Source: Candidatus Limnocylindria bacterium (GTDB lineage: Bacteria > Chloroflexota > Limnocylindria > P2-11E). Taken from it: a stretch of 34,206 nucleotides of DNA. Location of the stretch: positions 1-34,206 of the forward strand of contig DATDEH010000113.1 in assembly GCA_036523395.1 (NCBI GenBank), given 5' to 3'. Below the pieces are notes generated by a model. The model did not search any database, had not been told where the DNA came from, and worked only from the letters and a program-made list of their open reading frames with translations. This document shows, one piece after another, positions 6,097-22,589 of the stretch; positions within the stretch are counted from its first letter, which is position 1; the number at the start of each line of letters is the position of its first letter. The position numbers and the translations under genes are program-made.

Positions 6097-6465
6097 TCAG
6101 GCGATCCGTAGCACCACGGGCGCGTCGCCCCAGAGCCGCTCGAGCCGGTACAGCTCGCGTTCCTCGGGAACGAAGATGTGCACGACAACGTCGCTCAGGT
6201 CGACAAGGATCCACCGCCCGCCCTCGTAACCCTCGATCCCGAACGGCTGCTGTCCCGCAGCCTTCGCCTTCTCCACGATCCCATCCGCGATCCCTTGCGC
6301 CTGCCGCTCGCCGCGCGCGCTGCAGATGACGAAGAGGTCCGCGATGGTGGATACCTCGGAGATGTTGAGCACGAGGATGTCCTCGGCCTTCTTGTCGCTC
6401 GCCGCTTCGACGACAAGGTCGGCGAGCGCTCGTGGGGGGAGCTCAGCGCGCGTGGATGCCGTCAC
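6097..6465 (-). CDS. rsfS: Ribosome silencing factor RsfS
   Basis: RsfS binds ribosomal protein L14 on the large subunit and blocks joining with the small subunit, lowering translation when nutrients are short. The whole 122-residue protein is the RsfS/Iojap domain: DLVVEAASDKKAEDILVLNI, STIADLFVICSARGERQAQ, GYEGGRWILVDLSDVVVHIF and the YRLERLWGDAP tail are all signature segments. The start GTG overlaps the nadD stop (GTGA), so translation is coupled to nadD. The obg-nadD-rsfS order is common in bacteria. Confidence 0.96.
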   Translation of the reverse strand: MTASTRAELPPRALADLVVEAASDKKAEDILVLNISEVSTIADLFVICSARGERQAQGIADGIVEKAKAAGQQPFGIEGYEGGRWILVDLSDVVVHIFVPEERELYRLERLWGDAPVVLRIA

Positions 6466-7025
6466 TTATAGAGACCGCGTTGTTTGATGTGCTCCCACAC
6501 TGCGTCCGGAACAAGGTAACGCAGGGACATGCCGCGAGCGGCCCTGGCGCGTAGCTCGCGCGAGCTGATATCGAGCCGTGGCGCGTCGAACGCACGTGCA
6601 TCGTGCATCGGGTCGGGTTCCGGGGCACCGGGCCGTGCTGCGACGAGGATCGTGGATAGCTCGCGGATGCGATCGGGCGCTCGCCAGCGAGCGAGATCCG
6701 CGAGCGCATCGCTCCCGAGGATCAGGAAGAGTTCGCCCTGCGAGCGGAGAGCATCGAGCGTGTCCACCGTATACGAGACGCCCTCACGATCGAGCTCGAC
6801 CCGCGACAGCGCGAAGCGAGGCTCGCCCGCGATCGCTGCCTCGAGCATCGTGACGCGGTCCGCCACGCTCGCGAGTGGGTCGCGGTCCTTGAGCGGCGAT
6901 CGGCGTACCGGCACGAACAACACGCGGTCGAGCGGGACCGATTCGAGCGCAGCGAGAGCGATCGCGAGATGCCCGACGTGCACCGGATCGAACGTGCCGC
7001 CGAAAACTCCGACGCGCGCAGTCAA
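6462..7025 (-). CDS. nadD: Nicotinate-nucleotide adenylyltransferase
   Basis: Makes deamido-NAD+ from nicotinate mononucleotide and ATP, the penultimate step of NAD synthesis. The nucleotidyltransferase motif GGTFDPVHVGHL is at the N-terminus, and ISSRELRARAARG near the end matches the second ATP-binding motif. I place the start at TTG 7025 because the protein then begins MTARVGVFGGTFDP, the normal family N-terminus, and the TTGA overlaps the obg stop codon; reading further upstream only adds a non-conserved Ala/Gly-rich stretch inside obg. Length 187 residues, as expected. It lies between obg and rsfS in one overlapping operon. Confidence 0.95.
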   Translation of the reverse strand: MTARVGVFGGTFDPVHVGHLAIALAALESVPLDRVLFVPVRRSPLKDRDPLASVADRVTMLEAAIAGEPRFALSRVELDREGVSYTVDTLDALRSQGELFLILGSDALADLARWRAPDRIRELSTILVAARPGAPEPDPMHDARAFDAPRLDISSRELRARAARGMSLRYLVPDAVWEHIKQRGLYK

Positions 7026-8323
7026 CGCTTCTTCGTCGCGCCCGGAGCCGCCAGCTGCTGCGGCGCATCCAGCCATTCGAGCTCGAGCTTGCCGATACGC
7101 ACGGTGTCCCCGCTCTTCACGCCGAGCGTCCGAAGCTTTCCCTCGACCCCCGACCTGAGTAGGAGGCGGTGGAAGTATGCGGAGGCCTCAGGACTGTCCC
7201 AGTCGATCCCAGCGGCAAGCCGTTCGAGGCGGTCCCCACGGACGCGATACGCCTCACCCTCACGTGACACCTTGACGTCCCTCGCCCCACCCGCGAACAC
7301 GATCCGCCGTTCTGCCGGCCCCGCGGCCTCGGGCTTAGGTCGCGCGGTGCAGAGCGCGAAGATGCGCTTATTGAGGCGGTCGACGCCCTCGCCGGATGCG
7401 GCCGAGATAGCGATAGCCTCGCGACCTTTGGCCTCAAGGGCTTCAACGATCCCGGGCACCGCGTCGCGCGCCTCCGCGAGATCGATCTTGTTCAAAGCGA
7501 ACAGCTCGGGCAGCTCGTTGAGTGCTTGCCCGTACGCGGCGATCTCCGTGTCGATCGTCGCGATCGCAGCCAGGGGATCGGGGAGCGACGCATCGACGAC
7601 ATGGACGATGAGTCGGGTGCGCTCGATGTGGCGCAGGAACTCCTCGCCGAGGCCAGCGCCTTTGCTCGCGCCCTCGATCAATCCGGGGATATCGGCGATC
7701 ACGAGCTCGCGGTCGTCGAGGCGCGCGACCCCCAGGTTCGGCGTGAGGGTCGTGAACGGGTAGTTCGCGATCTTCGGTCGCGCGCGCGTCAGCGCTGCAA
7801 GCAGGCTGGACTTCCCGGCGTTCGGCAGACCGGCAAGGCCGACGTCGGCGATCAGGCGGAGCTCGAGCTCGAGCTCGCGCTGCTCGCCCGGCTGACCGTC
7901 CTCCGCGATGCGTGGCACGCGCCGCGTGCTCGATGCGAATCGCGCGTTGCCACGGCCGCCCCTGCCGCCGCGCGCGACGATGATCTCTTGGCCGGGCGCG
8001 ACGAGGTCCGCGACGATCTCGCCAGTCGCGACATCCTTCACCGTCGTGCCCGGTGGCACCTTGAGGACGAGATCGCCACCCGCTTTGCCGGACTTGTTCT
8101 GTCCACCGCCCGCATTTCCGCTCGTCGCCGCGTGCACATTCTGGTTCCGGTAGTCGCCAAGTGACGCGAGCTGATCGTCGACGCGGAGGACGACGTCGCC
8201 GCCTCGGCCACCATCGCCGCCGTCCGGTCCGCCGCGGGGAACGTGTGCTTCGCGGCGGAAGGAGATGACACCCTTGCCACCGTCGCCGGCGCGGATGGGC
8301 ACGCGCGCGCGATCGAGGAACAC
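7022..8323 (-). CDS. obg: Obg/CgtA GTPase
   Basis: Essential GTPase of large-ribosomal-subunit maturation and stress control. Domains in order: the glycine-rich Obg fold (1-157, GDGGKGVISFRREAHVPRGG), the G domain with P-loop GLPNAGKS (165-172), switch I TT in YPFTTLTP, DIPG (211-214), NKID and SAASG, and a C-terminal OCT domain (about 350-420). Full length at 433 residues. Start is GTG 8323, directly after the stop of the radical-SAM-like gene; nadD follows with an overlap. Confidence 0.96.
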   Translation of the reverse strand: MFLDRARVPIRAGDGGKGVISFRREAHVPRGGPDGGDGGRGGDVVLRVDDQLASLGDYRNQNVHAATSGNAGGGQNKSGKAGGDLVLKVPPGTTVKDVATGEIVADLVAPGQEIIVARGGRGGRGNARFASSTRRVPRIAEDGQPGEQRELELELRLIADVGLAGLPNAGKSSLLAALTRARPKIANYPFTTLTPNLGVARLDDRELVIADIPGLIEGASKGAGLGEEFLRHIERTRLIVHVVDASLPDPLAAIATIDTEIAAYGQALNELPELFALNKIDLAEARDAVPGIVEALEAKGREAIAISAASGEGVDRLNKRIFALCTARPKPEAAGPAERRIVFAGGARDVKVSREGEAYRVRGDRLERLAAGIDWDSPEASAYFHRLLLRSGVEGKLRTLGVKSGDTVRIGKLELEWLDAPQQLAAPGATKKR

Positions 8324-9553
8324 CTAGATCCTCGCCAGCGGTCGCACGAACGAACCGATGCGCAATTGCGGCAACTCATGGCGCAGTCGCTCCAGTGCGT
8401 GTGCGATGCCGATGCGCATCTCACGACCCTTCACTGCGGCAAGCGCACGAAGCGGATCGGCGGCGAGGTCGCGCAGGAGGATCGCGCTCCCTTCGCGCAG
8501 GTCGCCCGCGACTGAGATGAGCGCGGCGATCTCCTCTTCGCGATCGAAGATGCCAGGGAGGACCGGGATCAGCAGGCTCGTCGCGAGGCGCTGCTCGGCC
8601 GCGATGCGAAGTGACGCGCGAACGTCGGCGAACCGATAGCCATCCGGCCGGTGCAGGGTGTCGTATGTGTCCGCGCGCGCGGACATCAGCCGGATCGTCA
8701 CGGAATCAAGGCCGTTCGTCGCGAGGCGCCGCAGTGCGGTCGGCGCCGAGCCGTTCGTCTCGAGGTGGATCGTCCCCGACCGCGTCGTGGCACGGATCAG
8801 GTGGATCGCGTCCTCGACCATCCGCGGGACGAGCAGGGGCTCTCCCTCACACGCGCGCCCGAATGACACGAGCATTCCTCCGGCGCCGATGTGCTGCGTC
8901 GCGAGGCTCGCGATCTCTTCCACGGTGGCGTGGAACGCCGCGGGCTCGCGCGGCTCGGCTTCGCCATCGAAGCGCGGCGCGATCACGGCGAGCGGGTGCT
9001 CGTTGGCCGGCGCGGCGATGGGCAGCGCGCATTCCCAGCGGCCGTAGAAGGCATTCGCGGCGGCGCGGCACCCGTACTCGCGCGCGCAGCGTGCGAGCTG
9101 GCGGATCAGGCTGTCCGCGGGCCGTGAGCGGAGGGCTTCGTTGACCTTCGACGCGATCTCGGACTTTGGATATGCATCGACCTGGTGCGTTGGATCGCGA
9201 TCGAGGAGTGCCGCCGCGACGACGAGGTCGCCCGCATCGTCGGCCGCCACGGCCGTGTACGCGCGTCGCGTCAGGTCCGGCTTGTCCGTCGCATCCGCGT
9301 ATGCCGGTAGCTGTGTGCGCAGATGTCCGGGTGGCAGGACCGCCGCGACAGCGAGCCGGCCGGCGCCGACCCGTCGCGCGCGTCCGGCCTTGTCGAGCGT
9401 TTCGGCATCGCGCTCGACATGCAGGACGGTCGCGCCACTTGGAAGCGGGAGCGCGTCGGAGAACGGCACGGTCGCGGCGCCATCAAAGGCGGCAGCCGCG
9501 TAATCCGACACGATGACCCGTCCCGCCCGATCCGCATGGACTGCTCGATACAC
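8324..9553 (-). CDS. Radical-SAM-fold protein without cluster cysteines
   Basis: The 409-residue protein has the layout of a radical SAM family that I know from Firmicutes and Chloroflexi: an N-terminal beta domain (1-130), a linker with LARCAREYGCRAAANAFYGRW, then a radical SAM barrel with the SAM-binding GEP element in GRACEGEPLLVP, followed by IHLETNGS and SVTIRLMSARADTYDTLHRP. Where relatives carry CNxxCxxC after ALP, this protein has A183-N-E-H-P187-L-A-V190, the same 3 and 2 spacing but no cysteine. It therefore probably cannot hold the [4Fe-4S] cluster at the usual place. Other cysteines (C162-C167, C179, one before GEP) remain. Start GTG 9553 lacks a clear ribosome site. The stop abuts the obg start codon, so the two are co-transcribed. 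Substrate and role unknown. Confidence 0.75.
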   Translation of the reverse strand: MYRAVHADRAGRVIVSDYAAAAFDGAATVPFSDALPLPSGATVLHVERDAETLDKAGRARRVGAGRLAVAAVLPPGHLRTQLPAYADATDKPDLTRRAYTAVAADDAGDLVVAAALLDRDPTHQVDAYPKSEIASKVNEALRSRPADSLIRQLARCAREYGCRAAANAFYGRWECALPIAAPANEHPLAVIAPRFDGEAEPREPAAFHATVEEIASLATQHIGAGGMLVSFGRACEGEPLLVPRMVEDAIHLIRATTRSGTIHLETNGSAPTALRRLATNGLDSVTIRLMSARADTYDTLHRPDGYRFADVRASLRIAAEQRLATSLLIPVLPGIFDREEEIAALISVAGDLREGSAILLRDLAADPLRALAAVKGREMRIGIAHALERLRHELPQLRIGSFVRPLARI

Positions 9554-9730: not shown

Positions 9731-10732
9731 TTAGTACGCGAGCGGGTCCTGCGGTACTCCGTTCACCTTGAGCTCCCAGTGGACGTGGGGCCCTGTCGTG
9801 ACACCCGTCAGACCGATCGCGGCGATGAGCTGTCCGCGCGCCACGGTCTGTCCCGGGCTGACGTACACAGCGCTCGTGTGGTAGTAGCAGGTCTGCAGAC
9901 CGCCTGAGTGCTGCACGCAGACGCGAAGTCCGCCGACGGCGACGGGGCCGGTCGCGACGACGACGCCGTCATCGGAAGCGCCGATGCCTGTTCCATAGGG
10001 CGCGGCGATGTCGACACCGGTGTGGCCCCACCAGAAGTACTGAGTGATGTAGCCCTTGACAGGCCAACCCAGACGACCGGTGCGCGCTGGCAGTGACGCG
10101 TTCGATGGGACCGGTATGGACTTCGACCGCTCGGTGCGCTTGAGGGCGGGGAGCGCCGCGCCCGGCACGAAGATCAACTGGCCCACCGCGAAGTGCTCGG
10201 GCTCGAAGTACACGCGGTTGTAGGACATGACGACCGATGGATCGACCTTGAAGCGATCCGCGACGCTCTCCGGTGTGTCTCCGTCCTTCACCTTGTAGAG
10301 CGCGCCCTCGCCCGGCGGGATCAGCAGCTCGTGTCCGATCGTGAGGGTCTGGTCTTCCTCGCTGATGTTGTTCGCATAAGCGAGCGCTTCGAGAGAAAGG
10401 TCGTAGTAGTTGGCCATCGAGGAGAGCGTGTCTTCCTTCACGATCGTGCGGACCACAACAGGTCGTGCCTCCGGGGCGGCGACGGTCGTGGGACTACGCG
10501 TCCCGGCGATGACACCGCGTGCCGTGATCTGTGCGCGCGCGACATCGTCGGCCGGCACCGTGGCGAAAGATGTTGCTGCAGCGTCGGTCAGTGAGGCTTC
10601 GGCGCGCCCAGCCGTCGCGGCGGTGTAGGGAAGCATGAGGACCAACATCGCGGTTGCGATGTTGAGCACCAAACGAAGGCCCTTCGAGCCGAAGTACGCG
10701 GCGAGAGCGCGCGGGATGCGACGGATCGTCAC
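9731..10732 (-). CDS. LysM-M23 cell-wall peptidase
   Basis: Predicted cell-envelope endopeptidase that cuts peptidoglycan cross-links. From GTG 10732 the protein has a basic head (TIRRIPRAL), a membrane/signal helix (LRLVLNIATAMLVLMLPY), two LysM-like modules (VKEDTLSSMANYYDLSLEAL and VKDGDTPESVADRFKVDPSV, each ending in a LLIPPG or LIFVPG type strand) and a C-terminal M23 domain with HTGVDIAAP and HVHWE, which supply the zinc ligands. The CxQHSGGLQTCYYH core has two cysteines. ATG 10798 in the same frame is an alternative start, but it falls at the end of the possible leader element. Transcribed from a promoter at 10930-10958. Its M23 domain is clearly paralogous to that of the gene at 27201-28661. 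Confidence 0.88.
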   Translation of the reverse strand: MTIRRIPRALAAYFGSKGLRLVLNIATAMLVLMLPYTAATAGRAEASLTDAAATSFATVPADDVARAQITARGVIAGTRSPTTVAAPEARPVVVRTIVKEDTLSSMANYYDLSLEALAYANNISEEDQTLTIGHELLIPPGEGALYKVKDGDTPESVADRFKVDPSVVMSYNRVYFEPEHFAVGQLIFVPGAALPALKRTERSKSIPVPSNASLPARTGRLGWPVKGYITQYFWWGHTGVDIAAPYGTGIGASDDGVVVATGPVAVGGLRVCVQHSGGLQTCYYHTSAVYVSPGQTVARGQLIAAIGLTGVTTGPHVHWELKVNGVPQDPLAY

Positions 10733-10797
10733 GTCGACAAGCCGTTGCTTCGAGTGTTGACCCGAGGTGATCAGCGACGCGGCGCTCCTACGGACCA

Positions 10798-10908
10798 TCC
10801 TTCGCGCGCCGAGAGTCAGCGAAGGTGTCGCATGCGCCCTTCTAACGTTCGTCGCCAATACGGGCTTCCCTCCCCCAGGTAATGCCGATTCATGTACGCA
10901 ATGCGTAC
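10798..10908 (-). promoter_or_regulatory. Long leader of M23 gene; possible c-di-AMP riboswitch
   Basis: The promoter at 10930-10958 implies a leader of about 190 bases before GTG 10732. Within it, read on the minus strand, are ACCTGGGGGAGGGAAGCCCG, TTGGCGACGAAC and CGCTGACTCTCGG followed by CGAAGGA. Order and spacing recall ydaO-yuaA c-di-AMP riboswitches (GGAGGAACC, GGGGTTAATC, CAGCTAACTCCGG, GAAGGA), which often control wall hydrolases. The match is imperfect, so this is only a candidate. Confidence 0.3.
10894..10908. promoter_or_regulatory. Palindrome GTACGCA-A-TGCGTAC, possible operator
   Basis: Perfect 7-1-7 palindrome about 15-30 bases downstream of the predicted M23 transcription start. 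It may be a repressor site or simply the first hairpin of the leader RNA. Confidence 0.35.
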
Positions 10909-10929
10909 TGCTCTGTCCCGAGCCGGGGT

Positions 10930-10958
10930 ACCGTACCCACGAGGCCAAACGCTGTCAA
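10930..10958 (-). promoter_or_regulatory. Sigma-70-type promoter of the LysM-M23 gene
   Basis: Consensus -35 TTGACA (10958-10953), 17-base spacer, -10 TACGGT (10935-10930) on the minus strand. Transcription would begin near 10923. The -35 is a perfect match to the vegetative consensus and the spacing is optimal. Confidence 0.6.
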
Positions 10959-10977
10959 TCGCAGGACCGTCACGGGT

Positions 10978-11006
10978 TTGCTCACCCATTAGTACCTCCG
11001 TACCCT
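10978..11006 (+). promoter_or_regulatory. Probable leaderless promoter of the nuo operon
   Basis: TTGCTC (10978-10983), 17-base spacer, TACCCT (11001-11006), then six bases to GTG 11013 of nuoA. No Shine-Dalgarno precedes the GTG, so the transcript is likely leaderless. It is divergent from the M23 promoter, the two -35 boxes being about 20 bases apart. Confidence 0.4.
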
Positions 11007-11012
11007 ACGTGC

Positions 11013-11378
11013 GTGCCCGACTACAACCTCTCCTATGTCTATGTGTTCGCGTTCTTCGTAGCGGGAGCCCTGGTCGTCACGGTGATGATGTTGCTCAGCC
11101 ACTTGCTTGCTCCCTTCAAGCCGACGCGCGAGAAGCTGAAGACATATGAGTCCGGCGAGGAGCCCGTTGGTCAGGCGTGGGGTCGTTACCCAACTCATTT
11201 CTACGTGTTCGCGCTGCTTTTTGTCGTCTTCGATGTTGAGGTGATCTTCCTCTTCCCCTGGGCGGTGCTTTTCCGTGATCTCGGTTGGTACGGTCTCGTC
11301 GAGATGACGATCTTCATCGCCATCCTCGTAGTTGGCCTCTTCTACGCGTGGAAGAAGAAAGCGCTCAATTGGTACTGA
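11013..11378 (+). CDS. nuoA: NADH-quinone oxidoreductase subunit A
   Basis: Membrane subunit of respiratory complex I at the junction of the membrane and peripheral arms. The 121-residue protein has three helices; the conserved cytoplasmic loop [20 protein letters not shown] leads into [14 protein letters not shown], which holds the acidic residues of helix 2. The loop has YESG where many homologues have YECG. GTG 11013 gives the expected N-terminus ([14 protein letters not shown]). It starts an operon of eight nuo genes, all on the plus strand. Its TGA overlaps the first codons of nuoC. Confidence 0.95.
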
Positions 11379-11857
11379 GCACACCTCGCCCGACGATCGA
11401 CCTCATCGCGGCGCGCGGTGCGCTGGCGAAGAGCATCGGCGACCGGGCGAAGGTCTCGACACTGCATGACATGGTCGTGGTCGATGTGGAGGGCGCGCGG
11501 TTGGTGGAGGTCGCGACGATCGTGCGTGACGACCCCGCGACCCGCTGCGATCTCTATTCGGTGAACGCCGGTGTCGACACTGGGACCGAGCTACGCAGCG
11601 TCACGTTCGTTCGCGGCACCGAGACACACGTTTTTGTGATGCTTCGCACCCCGTGCGACGCGGCCGAGCCGCATGTCCCAACGCTCAGCTCGGTCTGGAC
11701 CGGCGCGAACTGGTGTGAGCGCGAGACCTACGACATGTTCGGCATCGTCTTCGACGGCCATCCGGACCTGCGACGGATCTTCCTCGAAGAGTCGTTCCCC
11801 GGTCACCCGATGCGCAAATCGTTCCTTCCCCCACGCAGCGACGCGCGCGGAGGCTGA
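11369..11857 (+). CDS. nuoC: NADH-quinone oxidoreductase subunit C
   Basis: Peripheral-arm (30 kDa type) subunit of complex I, here separate from NuoD. The signature [20 protein letters not shown] followed by [18 protein letters not shown] is complete. Translation must start near the nuoA stop: TTG 11369 is in frame and overlaps nuoA, and CTG 11375 is the only other nearby candidate; no ATG or GTG is suitably placed. Length about 162 residues is normal for stand-alone NuoC. Unusually, nuoB is missing between nuoA and nuoC and nuoD does not follow. Confidence 0.92.
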
Positions 11858-11864
11858 TGACGCT

Positions 11865-12989
11865 GTGCCGGTAGGTCCGTTCGGGATCGATCCCGCGATC
11901 TGGGCTCCACTTCGACTCGTGATCGCGGTCCTTCTGGTGGTGGGCCTCGTCTTCAATGGTGCGCTCGCGCAGATCTATCTCGAGCGCAAGATCCAGGCGG
12001 TCATCCAGGACCGGCTCGGGCCGCTGCACACCGGACCCTGGGGTCTGCTCCAGACCCTCGCCGATGCCGTCAAGCTGCTCGGCAAAGAAGACATCCGCGC
12101 GCGGCTGACCGACAAGTGGTTCTTCCTCGCCGCGCCCTCGATCGTGTTCAGCCCGATGCTCGCGAGCTATGTCGTGATCCCATTCGCGCCGGGGATCGTC
12201 GGTGCGGACCTCAACGTCGGGCTGCTGTATCTCACGACGCTCGGCTCGATGACCGTCCTCGGGATCGTCATCGCCGGCTGGGCCTCGAACAACAAGTATT
12301 CGCTCATCGGCGGCCTTCGCTCCGCCGGCCAGCTCATCTCCTACGAGGTGCCGCAGATCCTGTCGCTGGTCACCGTCGTGCTGGTCGTCGGCACGCTCTC
12401 GATGGTCGGCATCGCCGAGAGTCAACCGGGTTGGCAGCTGAATGTCCTCGTGCTGCCGCTCGCTTTCGTGACCTACTTCATCGCCGGCTTGGCCGAGACG
12501 AACCGCGCCCCCTTCGACCTCCCCGAGGCCGAGTCGGAGCTGGTCGCGGGCTTCCTGACCGAGTACTCGGGGATGCGCTGGGCGATCTTCTTCCTGGCCG
12601 AATACGGTGAAGTCACCGTCGTGTCGTCGATCGTGGCGACGCTGTGGTTCGGCGCATGGCACGGCCCGTTCGTCGAGGTCCTCCCGCTCCTCGGCGTGCT
12701 CTGGTTCACGCTGAAGACCTACTTCTTCGTGCTCGTCTTCATGTGGATCCGCGCCACGTTGCCGCGGCTGCGCATCGACCAGCTCATGTCGCTCTGCTGG
12801 AAGGTCCTGATCCCGCTGACGCTGACCAACCTCATGGTCACGGCCATCCTGCTGCTGGTCTTTCCCACGACGGTGGTGCCGGTGGCGATCGCCAACTGGA
12901 TCCTCCTGGCCTTCTTCGTGGTCGCCCTGCCGTACGTCCAGCGCCGCCGCCTTGTCGCGCTCCGCGAGCACCTCCGGACCGCGGCGTAG
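11865..12989 (+). CDS. nuoH: NADH-quinone oxidoreductase subunit H
   Basis: Membrane subunit that forms much of the quinone-binding chamber and links it to the proton channels. The 374-residue protein has eight or nine helices and the conserved loops ERKIQAVIQDRLGPLHTGPW, GGLRSAGQLISYEVP and AETNRAPFDLPEAESELVAG followed by FLTEYSGMRWAIFFLAEYGE. GTG 11865 is chosen because GGAGG (11849-11853) lies upstream and the first helix follows shortly. Three bases separate it from nuoJ. NuoI, which normally follows NuoH, is absent. Confidence 0.96.
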   Translation: MPVGPFGIDPAIWAPLRLVIAVLLVVGLVFNGALAQIYLERKIQAVIQDRLGPLHTGPWGLLQTLADAVKLLGKEDIRARLTDKWFFLAAPSIVFSPMLASYVVIPFAPGIVGADLNVGLLYLTTLGSMTVLGIVIAGWASNNKYSLIGGLRSAGQLISYEVPQILSLVTVVLVVGTLSMVGIAESQPGWQLNVLVLPLAFVTYFIAGLAETNRAPFDLPEAESELVAGFLTEYSGMRWAIFFLAEYGEVTVVSSIVATLWFGAWHGPFVEVLPLLGVLWFTLKTYFFVLVFMWIRATLPRLRIDQLMSLCWKVLIPLTLTNLMVTAILLLVFPTTVVPVAIANWILLAFFVVALPYVQRRRLVALREHLRTAA

Positions 12990-12991
12990 GC

Positions 12992-13492
12992 ATGTATGAC
13001 TTCATCGAGCCCTCGCTGTTCGCTGTCTTGACCATCGCGACCATCGCCTCGGGTGCGGGCGTCGTGTTCGCGAACCGCATCACCACGTCAGCGCTGCTGA
13101 TGGCCTTCACATTCCTCAACGTCGCGGCGATGTTCCTGCTGCTCGGCGCGGAGACCGTCGCGATGTTCCAGGTCCTCATCTACGTGGGCGCGATCACGGT
13201 CCTGATCCTCTACGGCGTGATGTTCACGCCGCAGTCGCCGCGCCCGTACGGGCTCTTCTTCCAGACCCAGAAGTGGTGGGCCGCGCTGTTCGTCGTTCCG
13301 ATCGCGATCTTCGTCGCGCTCGTGTCGTTCACCTTCCGCGATCCCGCGACGCTGGCCCCGAAGGGCGGCGACCTCCTGCCGCTCGCCACGAGCGTGTTCC
13401 GCGACTTCGCGTTCCCGTTCGAGGTCGCGTCCGTGCTTCTTCTCGCAGCGATGGTCGGCGCGATCGTCCTCGTGAAGCGGGACGAAGATTGA
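12992..13492 (+). CDS. nuoJ: NADH-quinone oxidoreductase subunit J
   Basis: Membrane-arm subunit of complex I; its third helix carries the pi-bulge important for coupling. The protein has 166 residues and five predicted helices; NVAAMFLLLGAETVAMFQVL and IYVGAITVLILYGVMF are the family core, ending in LLAAMVGAIVLVKRDED. ATG 12992 is two bases after the nuoH stop. A 91-base gap to nuoK follows, the only real gap in the operon. Confidence 0.95.
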   Translation: MYDFIEPSLFAVLTIATIASGAGVVFANRITTSALLMAFTFLNVAAMFLLLGAETVAMFQVLIYVGAITVLILYGVMFTPQSPRPYGLFFQTQKWWAALFVVPIAIFVALVSFTFRDPATLAPKGGDLLPLATSVFRDFAFPFEVASVLLLAAMVGAIVLVKRDED

Positions 13493-13583
13493 ATGAGCGA
13501 GGAGCGGCTCCGCCGCGACGAGCGAGTCAACCAGCCGTGAGCCTGTCTCCTGGGCGCAGCCCAGAGATCGAGCAGGAGTAAGC
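13493..13583. repeat. nuoJ-nuoK gap with hairpins and a GCGAGC motif
   Basis: The only long spacer of the nuo operon. It contains GCGACGAGCGAGTC (from about 13515, like the motif near tRNA-Ala), a short palindrome GAGCGGCTCCGC, and a hairpin CTGGGC-GCA-GCCCAG (13550-13564). The last bases AGGAG (13574-13578) serve as the nuoK ribosome site. No open frame of note. Confidence 0.5.
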
Positions 13584-13895
13584 ATGGCCGTTCCGCTCGG
13601 AGCGTTCATCGCGGTCTCGGCGGTGCTGTTCTTCATCGGCACCGCCGGGGTCCTGGTCCGACGGAACGCGGTCGTGATCCTCATGTCCGTCGAGCTGATG
13701 CTCAACGCGACGAACCTCGCGCTCGTCGCCTTCTCGCGACGCTACTCGTCGATCGACGAGCGTGGCAGCGTCTTCGTCGTCTTCATCTTCGTCGTCGCCG
13801 CGGCAGAGGTCGCGGTCGGTCTCGCGATCGTCCTCTCCGCCTACCGCAACCGGCCGACCGTCGACGTCGATGAGATAAGGCAGATGAGGGGCTAG
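13584..13895 (+). CDS. nuoK: NADH-quinone oxidoreductase subunit K
   Basis: Small three-helix proton-channel subunit. The two membrane glutamates needed for proton transfer are visible in SVELMLNATNLALVAF and VVAAAEVAVGLAIVLSAYR. At 103 residues it is the standard length. AGGAG stands five bases before ATG 13584. The stop codon directly abuts the ATG of nuoL. Confidence 0.96.
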   Translation: MAVPLGAFIAVSAVLFFIGTAGVLVRRNAVVILMSVELMLNATNLALVAFSRRYSSIDERGSVFVVFIFVVAAAEVAVGLAIVLSAYRNRPTVDVDEIRQMRG

Positions 13896-15794
13896 ATGAT
13901 CCAGAACGTCTGGCTCATTCCGGCATTCCCGCTCGCCGCGTTCCTCATCAACGGTCTGCTCGGTCGCAGGTGGCTGCACAAATGGACCGGCATCATCGCC
14001 TCGGTCGCGGTCGGGGCTTCGGCGCTCGTCGCCATCGGCGTGTTCCTCGAGGTCCTCGGCGGGCAGGAGCGAACGACCGTGGCGCTCTACGAATGGATCG
14101 GCGTTGCGGACTTCCGCATCAAGGTCGCTGCGCTCGTCGACCCGCTCTCCTCGGTGATGCTCCTCGTCGTCACGGTCGTGAGCTTCCTGATCTTCGTCTA
14201 CTCGAACGGGTATATGGAGCACGATCACGGGTTCGCGCGCTTCTTCACGTGGCTGTCGCTCTTCGTGTTCGCGATGCTCATCCTCGTCATGGCCGACAAC
14301 TACCTCCTGATGTTCGTCGGGTGGGAGGGCGTCGGCCTGTGCAGCTATCTGCTCATCGGGTTCTGGTTCGAGCGTCCTGAGCCGTACGTCGCGGCGAAGA
14401 AGGCGTTCGTCATGAACCGCATCGGCGACTGGGGCTACACGATCGGGATGATCACGACCTTCCTCGTCTTCGGGTCGATGCGATTCGTCGACGTCTTCGA
14501 GCATGTCGACATCGCGACGCAGGCGAACCTCACGCTCATCTGCCTTGCCCTCTTCTTCGGCGCGACGGGCAAGTCCGCGCAGCTGCCGCTGTACTCCTGG
14601 CTGCCGGACGCGATGGAAGGTCCGACCCCTGTGTCCGCCCTGATCCACGCGGCGACCATGGTCACGGCCGGCGTCTATCTGGTCGCCCGCTCCCTGCCAC
14701 TGTTCGAGGCGGCCGGACCGTCGCTCGCGGTCGTCGGGACCGTCGGCGCGGTGACCGCGATCTTCGCAGCGACGATCGCGCTGGTGCAGTTCGACATCAA
14801 GCGCGTGATGGCGTACTCGACGGTGAGCCAGCTCGGCTACATGTTCCTAGCCCTCGGCGTCGGTGCGCCGGTCGCGGCGATCTTCCACCTCGCCACGCAC
14901 GCGTTCTTCAAGGCCCTGCTGTTCCTTGGATCCGGCTCGGTGATCCACGGACTCGGAGGCGAGCAGGACATGCGGAAGATGGGTGGGTTGCGGCGCAAGA
15001 TGCCGGTGACGTTCTGGACGATGCTCTTCGCCGGCGGTGCGCTCGCCGCGCTGCCACCGCTCGCCGGGTTCTGGTCGAAGGACGCGATCCTCGCGTCGGC
15101 GTTCGTGAACGGACAGGTCGTCCTGTGGGCCGTCGGGATCGTGACCGCCGTGCTCACCGCGTTCTACGTGACGCGCGCGATGTGGATGACGTTCTACGGC
15201 GAGCCCCGCGACCACCACCTCTACGACCACGCTCACGAGTCGCCGGCAGTCATGACGCTGCCGCTCATCGCGCTCGCCGTCGGCACGGTCGTGCTCGGCA
15301 TCCTCGTGGGCTTCCCGCCGGAACAGGGCTTCATCGACCGGTTCCTGGGGCCCGTCTTCGAAGCCGCGGGCGGCGGTCACGTGCCGGAGGCCGCGACGCT
15401 CGTCACGCTCGCCGCGGTGTCCGTCGCCGCGGGCCTTCTCGGCATCCTCGCCGGCTTCTCGATGTACGTGCGGCACCGGCCCGACCCCGCTGCCGTCTCG
15501 CGCGCCGCCGGGCCGTTCTACCGGCTGCTCGTGAACAAGTACTTCATCGATGAGCTCTACGACCGGCGGATCGTCGAGGCGTTCCGCGCCGCGTTCGGAG
15601 CGATGTGGGCCTTTGACATCCACGTCGTGGACGGTCTCGCGAACCGGGTCGGCTGGGTCGCGGCCCTTGGCGGCGGTGCGCTGCGTCGCGCGCAGACCGG
15701 CGTCGTCGGCAACTACGCGCTCACGATCGTCGCCGGTCTGCTCGTGATCCTCGTGGCGTACGGCGGCTACGCGGTGGGGATCTTCACGCGATGA
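13896..15794 (+). CDS. nuoL: NADH-quinone oxidoreductase subunit L
   Basis: Largest antiporter-like proton-pumping subunit of complex I, at the far end of the membrane arm. 632 residues. Key residues are present: the helix-5 glutamate in GWEGVGLCSYLLIGFWF, the helix-7 lysine in GATGKSAQLPLYSWLPDAME followed by GPTPVSALIHAATMV, and the helix-8 and discontinuous-helix region QFDIKRVMAYSTVSQLGYM and HAFFKALLFLGSGSVIHGL. The C-terminal part contains the long lateral helix region and a last anchor helix (YALTIVAGLLVILVAYGGYA). ATG 13896 follows the nuoK stop without a gap; nuoM overlaps the end by four bases. Confidence 0.97.
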   Translation: MIQNVWLIPAFPLAAFLINGLLGRRWLHKWTGIIASVAVGASALVAIGVFLEVLGGQERTTVALYEWIGVADFRIKVAALVDPLSSVMLLVVTVVSFLIFVYSNGYMEHDHGFARFFTWLSLFVFAMLILVMADNYLLMFVGWEGVGLCSYLLIGFWFERPEPYVAAKKAFVMNRIGDWGYTIGMITTFLVFGSMRFVDVFEHVDIATQANLTLICLALFFGATGKSAQLPLYSWLPDAMEGPTPVSALIHAATMVTAGVYLVARSLPLFEAAGPSLAVVGTVGAVTAIFAATIALVQFDIKRVMAYSTVSQLGYMFLALGVGAPVAAIFHLATHAFFKALLFLGSGSVIHGLGGEQDMRKMGGLRRKMPVTFWTMLFAGGALAALPPLAGFWSKDAILASAFVNGQVVLWAVGIVTAVLTAFYVTRAMWMTFYGEPRDHHLYDHAHESPAVMTLPLIALAVGTVVLGILVGFPPEQGFIDRFLGPVFEAAGGGHVPEAATLVTLAAVSVAAGLLGILAGFSMYVRHRPDPAAVSRAAGPFYRLLVNKYFIDELYDRRIVEAFRAAFGAMWAFDIHVVDGLANRVGWVAALGGGALRRAQTGVVGNYALTIVAGLLVILVAYGGYAVGIFTR

Positions 15795-17317
15795 CGATCG
15801 ACCACATCCTCACCCTGCTCCTCACCGTGCCGGGCGTCGGACTCATTCCGCTCTACGTCTTCCGGAACGATCCGCGTTCGGTGAAGCAGGTCGCGGTCGT
15901 CACGACGCTGGTCGAGCTGGCGCTCTCGCTCGTGATGCTCGCGCAGTTCCGCGCGGGCGAGGCGGGCTTTCAGCTCGTCGAACAGGCGGACTGGCTTCCG
16001 AGCCTCGGCATCCGCTACCTCGTCGGCGTCGACGGGATCTCCGTCCTGCTCGTGCCGATGACGACGCTGCTGACCTTCATCTCGGTGCTCTACTCGTCGG
16101 GCGGGGCGATCAAGGACCGAATCGCGTCGTTCATGGCTGCGTTCCTCGTGCTCGAGATCGGCATGGTCGGCGTGTTCGTGTCGCTCGACCTCTTCCTGTT
16201 CTACGTGATGTTCGAGCTGATGCTCGTGCCGATGTACCTGATCATCGGCATCTGGGGCGGCCCGCGTCGAATCTACTCGACGCTGAAGTTCGTGATCTTC
16301 ACGCTCGCAGGCTCGCTCCTCATGCTCGTGGCCATCGTTGCCGTGTGGCTCGCGACCGGCGACGAGGGCTCGCGGACGCTCTCGCTGCCGGAGCTGCTCG
16401 CGTCACGCGGACGCTTCTCCGCCGAGTTCCAGTTCTGGGTGTTCCTCGCCTTCGGTCTGGCGTTCGCGATCAAGCTGCCGATGGTCCCGTTCCACACCTG
16501 GCTGCCCGACGCCCATGTCGAGGCGCCGACCGCTGGCTCGATCATCCTCGCCGGCGTCCTGCTGAAAGCGGGCGGCTACGGTTTCTTGCGCTTCGCGCTT
16601 CCGCTCTTCCCGGTCGGGACACAGCTGTGGCTGCCGGTGATCATCGTGCTCTCGGTCATCGCGATCCTCTACGGCGCCGCCGTGTCGACGGTGCAGAAGG
16701 ATCTGAAGAAGCTCGTCGCGTATTCATCGGTGGCGCACATGGGCTTCGTGACGCTGGGCATCTTCGTTCTCAATGCACAGGGCGGTGTCGGCGCGGTGTT
16801 GCAGATGCTCAACCACGGGTTCGTCACCGGCGCCCTTTTCCTCTTCGTCGGCATCCAGTACGAGCGCACCCATCGCCGTCTCATTGCCGATCTCGGCGGT
16901 CTTGCGAACCGGTGGCCGCTGTACACGACGTTCTTTGGCGTCTTCGTGCTCGCGTCGCTCGGCCTCCCAGGGCTGAACGGCTTCGTCGGGGAGTTCCTCG
17001 TGCTGCTCGGAACGTTCAAGTTCAGCGGTGTGCCGCTCGGCGGCCTCTTCTGGGGCCCGGTCGCGGCTCTCGGCGTGATCCTCGCCGCGGTGTACCTCCT
17101 GTGGATGTTCCAGCGCGTGATGTACGGACCAGTGCGTGAAGCCTTCCGCGGGCTCCCCGACCTGTCGCCGATCGAAGTGATCTGCGCCGTGCCGCTCCTC
17201 GTGCTCACCGTCCTGCTCGGCGTCTTTCCGCAGCCGGCGATCGCGATCATCGAGCCGTCGCTCCAGCAGGTGCTCCGGCTCGCGACCGATCCCGGCTTCC
17301 AGGTCGCGTTCAAGTGA
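15791..17317 (+). CDS. nuoM: NADH-quinone oxidoreductase subunit M
   Basis: Second antiporter-like proton-pumping subunit. The 508-residue protein has the helix-5 glutamate in VMFELMLVPMYLIIGIWGG, the helix-7 lysine in AIKLPMVPFHTWLPDAHVEA, LKKLVAYSSVAHMGFV in helix 8, and the helix-12 glutamate in GLNGFVGEFLVLLG. Starts with ATGA overlapping the nuoL stop and ends overlapping nuoN (GTGA), so translation of L, M and N is coupled. Confidence 0.97.
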   Translation: MTIDHILTLLLTVPGVGLIPLYVFRNDPRSVKQVAVVTTLVELALSLVMLAQFRAGEAGFQLVEQADWLPSLGIRYLVGVDGISVLLVPMTTLLTFISVLYSSGGAIKDRIASFMAAFLVLEIGMVGVFVSLDLFLFYVMFELMLVPMYLIIGIWGGPRRIYSTLKFVIFTLAGSLLMLVAIVAVWLATGDEGSRTLSLPELLASRGRFSAEFQFWVFLAFGLAFAIKLPMVPFHTWLPDAHVEAPTAGSIILAGVLLKAGGYGFLRFALPLFPVGTQLWLPVIIVLSVIAILYGAAVSTVQKDLKKLVAYSSVAHMGFVTLGIFVLNAQGGVGAVLQMLNHGFVTGALFLFVGIQYERTHRRLIADLGGLANRWPLYTTFFGVFVLASLGLPGLNGFVGEFLVLLGTFKFSGVPLGGLFWGPVAALGVILAAVYLLWMFQRVMYGPVREAFRGLPDLSPIEVICAVPLLVLTVLLGVFPQPAIAIIEPSLQQVLRLATDPGFQVAFK

Positions 17318-18768
17318 GCACATTCGTCGACACGCTGGTGCCGATCCTTCCCGAGGTGATCGTCACGATCACGGCCTCGGTGGTCCTGATCGCGGACGGT
17401 CTTCTCCCGAAAGGACAGTCCCGACTGGTGCTGCCCGCCATGACGGTCGTCGGTCTCGCGCTCGCCTTCCTGGGCGGACCGCTCGCGCCGCCGTCGGGCC
17501 AGTACTTCGGCGGGTACGTGCAGATCGACACGTTCACGACGTTCTTCCGCGCGGTGTTCATCCTCCTCGCCGCGTTCGCGACCCTCGTCGCTCCGTCGTA
17601 CCTCGAGCGGCGCGGCATCTCGCCGGGCGAGTACTACGCGACGATCTGCTTCTCGACCGTCGGCGCGATGACGATCGCGCTCTCGACCGATCTCATCACG
17701 CTCTTCGTGGGGCTCGAGCTCATGACCATCCCGATCTACGTGCTCGCCGGCATGCAGCGCCGCGACCGGTTCGCGAACGAGGCCGCCCTCAAGTACTTCC
17801 TGCTCGGCGCGTTCAGCTCGGCGCTGCTCGTCTATGGCTTCGCGTGGTTGTACGGCGTGACGGGCTCGACGCGCTACATCGACGTCGCGACGGAGCTGCA
17901 GCGCATCGGCCTCGCAAATGGACCCACCATCGTCGCCCTCGCCCTCGTCACGGCCGGCCTCGGGTTCAAGGCCGCGGTCGTGCCGTTCCACCAGTGGACC
18001 CCTGACGCGTACGACGGCGCGCCGACCCCGGCGACCGCGTTCATGTCGGTGGCGCCGAAGGCCGCGGCGTTCGCCGCGATCCTCCGCGTGCTGTTCATCG
18101 CGCTGGCACCACTCTCGGTCGACTGGAGCTCGGTCTTCGCGATCCTGGCCGCGGTCACCATGACCGGCGGGAACATCGTCGCGCTCGTGCAGATGAATAC
18201 GAAGCGCATGCTCGCGTACTCGAGCATCGCGCACACCGGGTACATCCTCGCCGCGGTCGCGGCCTCGGCGGCGGGACCATCGGCCACCGCGGCCGTTCTC
18301 TTCTACGTGTTCGCGTACGGCGTCATGAATCTCGGCGCGTTCGCGTGCCTGCTCTACTTCGACGTCGAGGGCTCGCGCGGGGCGACGCTCGAGGAGCTCA
18401 ACGGCTTCGCGCGCCGCCAGCCGCTCGGCGCTTTCGCCTTCGCGATATTCCTCTTCTCGCTCACCGGGATCCCACCCACGGTCGGCTTCGTCGCGAAGTT
18501 CCTCGTCATCCAGCCGGTGCTCGACGCCGGCTATGCGTGGCTCGCGGTCTTCATCGCGCTCAACGCCGTGCTCGCGGCCTTCTACTACCTGCGTGTCGTC
18601 GTCCACATGTACATGTACGACCCGGACACGGGCGCGCCCATGGTGGTGAACACGCGGCTGCTCTCCGCGGCGCTCGGGATCTCGGCGCTCGCCACGATCG
18701 TCCTGGGCGTGCTGCCGAACTCCTTATATGCGTGGGCGCTGCAGGCGGCGAACCCGCTGCTGCGATAG
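17314..18768 (+). CDS. nuoN: NADH-quinone oxidoreductase subunit N
   Basis: Third antiporter-like subunit, next to NuoK in the complex. In the 484 residues the helix-5 glutamate is in GLELMTIPIYVLAGM, the helix-7 lysine in GLGFKAAVVPFHQWTPDAYD, NTKRMLAYSSIAHTGY is helix 8, and the terminal channel lysine, which replaces the NuoM glutamate, is in PTVGFVAKFLVI. GTG 17314 overlaps the nuoM stop. It is the last gene of the operon and is convergent with a small membrane protein gene whose stop lies 10 bases away. Confidence 0.97.
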   Translation: MSTFVDTLVPILPEVIVTITASVVLIADGLLPKGQSRLVLPAMTVVGLALAFLGGPLAPPSGQYFGGYVQIDTFTTFFRAVFILLAAFATLVAPSYLERRGISPGEYYATICFSTVGAMTIALSTDLITLFVGLELMTIPIYVLAGMQRRDRFANEAALKYFLLGAFSSALLVYGFAWLYGVTGSTRYIDVATELQRIGLANGPTIVALALVTAGLGFKAAVVPFHQWTPDAYDGAPTPATAFMSVAPKAAAFAAILRVLFIALAPLSVDWSSVFAILAAVTMTGGNIVALVQMNTKRMLAYSSIAHTGYILAAVAASAAGPSATAAVLFYVFAYGVMNLGAFACLLYFDVEGSRGATLEELNGFARRQPLGAFAFAIFLFSLTGIPPTVGFVAKFLVIQPVLDAGYAWLAVFIALNAVLAAFYYLRVVVHMYMYDPDTGAPMVVNTRLLSAALGISALATIVLGVLPNSLYAWALQAANPLLR

Positions 18769-22168: not shown

Positions 22169-22250
22169 GATGGCATGGGACTTGCAGCCTGCCTCGCTAC
22201 TCAGCGGGGAAGCCACAGGGCCCCCGGAAGGCATCGAAGGGAGACCACGG

Positions 22251-22589
22251 ATGACGCGAAACAAGGGCGCCATGACCGTCGCCGAGGCTGGTCGGCGAGG
22301 CGGAGCCACGACAGCCCAGCGACACGGCCCGGAGTTCTACGAGCAGATCGGCAAGAAGGGTGGCCGCACGACCGCGCAGCGCCACGGCTCCGATTTCTAC
22401 GAGCAGATCGGAAAGCAGGGTGGCCAGAAGGTCAAGGAGCTCTACGGTCCGCGCTTCTACGGTCGCATCGGAAAGATCGGCGGCGACACCGTCTCCGAGA
22501 AATATGGACACGAGCACTTCGAAGAGATCGGCAAGAAGGGCGGACAGAAGGTCGCTGAGTTGATCGCTCGGGGACGCCAAGCGGGCTAG
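22251..22589 (+). CDS. KGG-repeat (Em/GsiB-like) stress protein
   Basis: Very hydrophilic, Gly/Lys-rich protein of 112 residues made of tandem 20-residue repeats: R24-Q43, R44-E63, L64-E83 and K84-E103, with consensus +(H/Y)GxxFYEQIGKKGGxxxxE, preceded by a half repeat AEAGRRGGATTAQ. This is the stress-induced KGG repeat known from group 1 LEA (Em) proteins, fungal Con-10 and Bacillus GsiB. Family knowledge suggests protection during drying, salt or starvation stress, probably as a largely disordered cytoplasmic protein. ATG 22251 is fixed by GAAGGGAGA upstream and by the MTRNKGAMTVAEAGRRGG family start. The two middle repeats are also similar at DNA level (60-base period). Confidence 0.9.
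   Translation: MTRNKGAMTVAEAGRRGGATTAQRHGPEFYEQIGKKGGRTTAQRHGSDFYEQIGKQGGQKVKELYGPRFYGRIGKIGGDTVSEKYGHEHFEEIGKKGGQKVAELIARGRQAG

Follow-up and report, generated by a model that had tools for sequence, protein, structure and literature searches.

The window, by which we mean the whole 34,206-nucleotide stretch of DNA analyzed here, carries on its reverse strand a gene (8324..9553, GTG start) for a 409-aa protein that we classify as a radical-SAM-derived pseudoenzyme on the basis of its open reading frame and translation, its orthologs, and the ratio of nonsynonymous to synonymous change (dN/dS). Directly downstream, and on the same strand, lies obg (7022..8323), which codes for the GTPase ObgE and matches NCBIfam TIGR02729/NF008955 above cut-off. 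The run continues with nadD (6462..7076, reverse strand; NF000840 and TIGR00482, both above cut-off) and with rsfS, the gene for the ribosome silencing factor (6097..6465, reverse strand; TIGR00090 above cut-off, PF02410). On the upstream side, a LysM/M23 peptidase gene (9731..10948, reverse strand; PF01551 and PF01476) is a conserved neighbor, and in the lineage loci compared it precedes the pseudoenzyme gene wherever the contig reaches that far. In 25 of 26 loci, the stop codon of the pseudoenzyme gene falls from -11 to +4 nt relative to the start of obg; the one exception is at +68. This near-zero spacing, kept across the lineage, supports the earlier proposal that the two genes are cotranscribed.

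Elsewhere in the window, nuoA- and nuoC-like open reading frames on the forward strand are followed by nuoH- and nuoK-N-like ones (10767-18768; names assigned by eye), and nuoB and nuoD are missing between them. The complex I genes are split because genes of the NuoB and NuoD type sit on a separate contig (G000:C32, 20322-21863). A further forward-strand reading frame (22170-22589) carries KGG-type repeats (GRRGGATTAQRHG...GKKGGRTTAQ) and, by eye only, resembles small stress-induced KGG proteins.

The former cluster site and its ancestry

Radical SAM proteins normally are recognized by their cluster cysteines, and a whole bacterial family here retains such a protein without them. On alignment with 155 cysteine-bearing loci, the segment that was once the CxxxCxxC cluster site (8984..9007, reverse strand) reads A183-N-E-H-P187-L-A-V190. 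The original prediction had placed the lost site at this point, and translation confirms both its residues (A N E H P L A V I at 183-191, encoded at 9007..8981) and its numbering. The segment is indeed the cluster site, as A183, P187, and V190 align on the three cluster cysteines of canonical homologs. One of these is the sister locus L024 (VBHP01000067, a 'Chloroflexi' MAG of the same order), where the site reads SPACNARCVGCISLQ and the spacing to the flanking motifs is unchanged. The flanking family motifs that had been named alongside the site, GEP (237-239) and ETNGS (265-269), are likewise present in the window protein.

The homolog alignment shows that the cysteine loss is common to the whole lineage. 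Within the window's taxonomic family, 25 genomes cover the site, and every one is noncysteine at the three positions, none having any of the three, whereas CxxxCxxC is kept in 155 of 155 homologous loci outside the family (loci, not species, some genomes having been fetched by two routes). The orthologs were drawn from genomes related to that of the window, from the same phylum, and from a single scan across GTDB species genomes. Three further family genomes yielded only fragments that end before the cluster site, and one cysteine-less fragment (L217) is the second half of a split copy whose genome is already included in the 25. The three-cysteine [4Fe-4S] site that follows beta 1 in catalytic radical SAM enzymes is thus absent from the window protein, where A183/P187/V190 stand in its place.

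A tree of 68 rows, from which the cluster-site columns were excluded, unites all 24 degenerate rows in a single clade whose sister is L024 (100% SH-aLRT). Only one state change is needed on this tree, and repeated independent loss of the cysteines is therefore rejected. The gene order at L024 (LysM/M23 peptidase - radical SAM gene - obg - nadD) matches that of the window, and the two proteins are 44% identical. With the same neighbors and this degree of identity, the window gene is an ortholog within an uncharacterized family of radical SAM genes that neighbor rho or obg. Orthologs are present in 29 of 29 genomes of the order. A second, intact paralog was found in none of the 28 genomes of the family, where the other matches are weak, unrelated radical SAM proteins. 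The gene was also not found in the rest of the class (122 of 122 genomes searched), which therefore seems to have discarded it except in the window's order.

Selection has continued to act on the protein. Pairwise NG86 estimates of dN/dS are 0.12-0.35 for the whole gene; by region, the N-terminal domain gives 0.10-0.32, the former cluster loop 0.03-0.28, and the barrel 0.12-0.27. Owing to the short loop and the high synonymous divergence, these figures are approximate. In the same pairs, obg gives 0.04-0.09, and protein identities place the divergence rate of the pseudoenzyme between those of obg and the M23 gene. Every complete copy in the lineage keeps its full length, and dozens of residues are newly conserved. 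That the protein is functional is, in our judgment, nearly certain.

Two other explanations are rejected. The genome is a 128-contig assembly, which lends some color to the idea that the missing cysteines are an assembly or sequencing artefact, or that the gene is a paralog and the true enzyme is encoded elsewhere in the genome. The identical loss in 25 independent genomes with one copy each, the lack of a second family member, and the orthology established by synteny refute this idea, and we give it essentially no credence. The other explanation is that the gene is a relic reading frame, retained only through translational coupling to obg, as might be imagined from stop and start codons that touch or nearly touch in almost all members. 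A dN/dS of about 0.1-0.35 along the whole protein rejects it, and the maintained length, the newly conserved residues, and the confidently predicted fold also make it a very improbable account.

The claim that the site reflects evolved loss rather than misannotation is therefore upheld by purifying selection, by synteny with a cysteine-bearing ortholog, by a tree that needs only one loss, and by the alignment across the family. The window protein genuinely descends from a radical SAM enzyme and lacks its cluster; it is not an error. The cysteine loss is old, a single event in the ancestor of the window's family, the gene having been inherited vertically beside obg. Pseudoenzymes, which are enzyme homologs that lack catalytic residues and are conserved by selection, are a well-known kind of protein, and the window protein resembles them in that its catalytic residues are lost and the protein is retained by selection. 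In open-licence literature, no comparable radical SAM pseudoenzyme was found that is fixed throughout a bacterial family, and a family-fixed example with an intact sister ortholog at the same locus may, on weak evidence, be new.

What the barrel has kept and lost

The AlphaFold2 model of the window protein (pLDDT 93.5, pTM 0.91, from a 49-row alignment) and that of canonical L024 (pLDDT 94.7, pTM 0.92) both consist of an N-terminal beta domain (about residues 1-116), helices that carry C156 and flank C162, and a barrel. In the window protein, the N-terminal all-beta domain (residues 1-116; 9206..9553, reverse strand) has pLDDT values of mostly 94-98, and Pfam scans of this domain returned no match. 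Searches of the PDB with Foldseek gave radical SAM enzymes as top matches for both models, the best for the window model being BlsE, LipA, NifB, and PFL-AE with E values down to 3e-8. Modeling thus bears out a confident N-terminal beta domain joined to a radical-SAM barrel of the partial TIM type. Just past the old site, residues 191-195 form a strand in the window model and coil in that of L024, and confidence is lowest there (blocks 67-76).

Pfam scans gave the window protein no match to PF04055 above the gathering score; relative L011 scores 39.1 and intact sister L024 scores 47.2, against a cut-off of 29.5. Nor was the canonical family readily named, as NCBIfam returned only weak, sub-cut-off matches (MoaA, BlsE, NrdG2), Pfam gave PF04055 only, and PHROGs gave nothing. 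The same genome encodes five other PF04055 proteins, all with intact CxxxCxxC. The organism therefore still has radical SAM proteins, and a general loss of iron-sulfur chemistry is not the reason for the missing cysteines.

The canonical family, which occurs in Bacillota, in Ktedonobacteria and other Chloroflexota, and in Vulcanimicrobiota, is homologous to the window protein over its full length at about 30-44% identity. Common to this family and the window lineage are the N-terminal domain, CxxxxxC (C156/C162), CEGEP, and PG.TD, as well as the gene order in the sister genome. Canonical members differ in carrying CNxxCxGCIS and near-invariant Q233, N265, R286, S288, Y300, N328, Q359, and N364, all of which are absent from the window lineage. 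Canonical members have 68 columns with conservation of at least 95%; the window lineage keeps 27 of these, and the other 41 are lost or relaxed. The kept columns include C156, C162, H221, FG231-232, C235, G237-E238-P239, R254, P333-G334, D337, and D366, and the PG.TDR motif is kept as well. Lost together with the cluster are Q233 (now R), G234 (A), N265 (E), R286 (T/A), S288 (R), and Y300 (L/I), along with N328, Q359, and N364.

Three of these replacements have become nearly fixed features of the lineage. R233 (8855..8857, reverse strand) is Arg in 22 of 24 members, compared with Gln in 153 of 153 canonical ones; E265 (8759..8761, reverse strand) is Glu in 22 of 24, compared with Asn in 153 of 153. 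The same 22 of 24 members carry both R233 and E265, and the two that lack both, L023 and L027, are sisters in the tree; we infer that the two residues may interact. H301 is newly invariant in the degenerate lineage. The third replacement, R288 (8690..8692, reverse strand; Arg in 23 of 24), takes the place of the Ser/Thr of the ribose motif (canonical S 148, T 4). In a profile alignment, the canonical S288 column corresponds to the ribose serine of BlsE and to S126 of MoaA, a residue that contacts SAM. The ribose motif, a Ser on beta 4, positions SAM in SkfB (PMC6231123), and with Arg in 23 of 24 members the window lineage no longer has it.

Because this Ser and residues of the barrel lumen are also gone, damage to the SAM site extends past the cluster. 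These changes weaken the suggestion, made in the original prediction, that the protein perhaps still binds SAM, and ordinary SAM or radical chemistry is very unlikely. The GGE-type motif at the end of beta 2 is retained in the window lineage as G237-E238-P239 (CEGEP; 8837..8845, reverse strand; kept in at least 96% of members). Residues of the GGE motif are required for the activity of BlsE (PMC3715490). Against the pseudoenzyme reading stands the retention of GEP, the adjacent C235, and PG.TDR, with which the barrel might still accommodate a ligand or metal. BlsE, MoaA, NifB, and LipA share with the window protein the partial TIM barrel, the GE motif, and sequence similarity in the barrel, but they carry the cluster, and BlsE and MoaA also the aligned ribose serine. 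The window protein has neither and possesses an N-terminal domain that is extra by comparison.

The remaining cysteines of the window protein are C156, C162, C175, and C235. An earlier list of candidates for a different cluster gave C162, C167, and C179, numbers that are off by about five. C156 (9086..9088) and C162 (9068..9070), both on the reverse strand, are invariant in both forms (each 24/24 degenerate and 154/154 canonical). C235 (8849..8851, reverse strand), just before the GE motif, is equally so (24/24, and 153/153 with a residue there). H221 is retained in 96-99%, and C175 is poorly conserved (16 of 24 lineage members). Among the 24 degenerate rows, no newly conserved cysteine accompanied the loss. 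Compensatory cysteines as a replacement cluster are accordingly rejected, with none gained and C175 present in only 16 of 24. The earlier alternative of a role for other cysteines is partly right in that C156, C162, and C235 are invariant, but the invariance is the same in cluster-bearing members, and the three are therefore ancestral and did not arise to replace the cluster. Judged by their conservation, they may hold a separate metal site.

ThiC, PhnJ, and Dph2 are noncanonical radical SAM enzymes that have no CxxxCxxC at the standard position and hold a three-cysteine cluster elsewhere. The window protein resembles them in the first respect. It differs in that its lineage gained no conserved cysteine and the three left over predate the loss.

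Possible functions of the cluster-less protein

The explanation we favor, and consider likely as a whole, is that this is a lineage-fixed radical SAM pseudoenzyme whose re-plugged barrel now acts as a nonradical binding or scaffold protein. The sequences show that the gene beside obg lost its three [4Fe-4S] cysteines and several active-site residues in the family ancestor, and that purifying selection has acted ever since. Because no cluster is left, normal bidentate SAM binding and formation of a 5'-deoxyadenosyl radical should be impossible, and we are confident that canonical radical chemistry does not occur. R233, E265, and R288 would have repacked the emptied barrel mouth together with the former cluster loop, part of which is strand in the window model. 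Binding or scaffold work would then be carried out through the N-terminal beta domain, the barrel, and the conserved C156/C162/C235 set.

Two other accounts, a nonradical active site and a surviving ancestral metal site, are live rivals. In the former, R233, E265, and R288 together with the barrel would form a different, cluster-free active site in a neofunctionalized enzyme. The joint presence of R233 and E265 and their joint absence in L023 and L027, the invariance of H301, and the strong purifying selection are all consistent with such a site. The same pattern would result, however, if a salt bridge plugged the old site, and the lumen positions 286, 328, 359, and 364 are now variable, which is unusual in a catalytic site; we therefore regard new catalysis as rather improbable. 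Somewhat less probable still is that C156, C162, and C235, perhaps with H221, bind an ancestral auxiliary metal or iron-sulfur cluster that has become the sole cofactor of a metalloenzyme of a different type. The persistence of the three cysteines in every degenerate row and essentially all canonical members, the retention of H221, and the position of C235 immediately before the GE motif speak for this account, but the loss brought no newly conserved cysteine and took ribose-motif and lumen residues with it.

On our preferred reading as a binding or scaffold protein, the partner would most likely be the co-encoded ribosome-assembly/translation module (Obg, RsfS). A translation-related role is hinted at by the run M23 - X - obg - nadD - rsfS and by the placement of canonical members in Bacillota, often near rho, rpmE (L31), prfA (RF1), prmC, and pth. 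Because the Ktedonobacteria relatives have different neighbors and the evidence consists of such neighborhood hints, a function linked with the ribosome or the Obg module is offered only tentatively. More specifically, the protein could be a cluster-less ribosome-biogenesis factor in which a barrel plugged by R233/E265/R288 and bearing the ancestral C156/C162/C235 metal site binds Obg or the maturing 50S subunit, a proposal that we think unlikely in this full form. If it were true, the ancestral enzyme itself would have acted on the translation machinery.

Because an intact ortholog occupies the same locus in the sister lineage, the two proteins form a clean before/after pair. Comparing them could reveal the use of a radical SAM barrel once its radical chemistry is gone, and could separate residues that serve the cluster from those that serve the remainder of the protein. 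A further lead is the canonical family, which is widespread and uncharacterized and is often encoded near translation genes. The canonical homologs L063-L142 are widespread in Bacillota and likewise bear the invariant C156/C162/C235 set.
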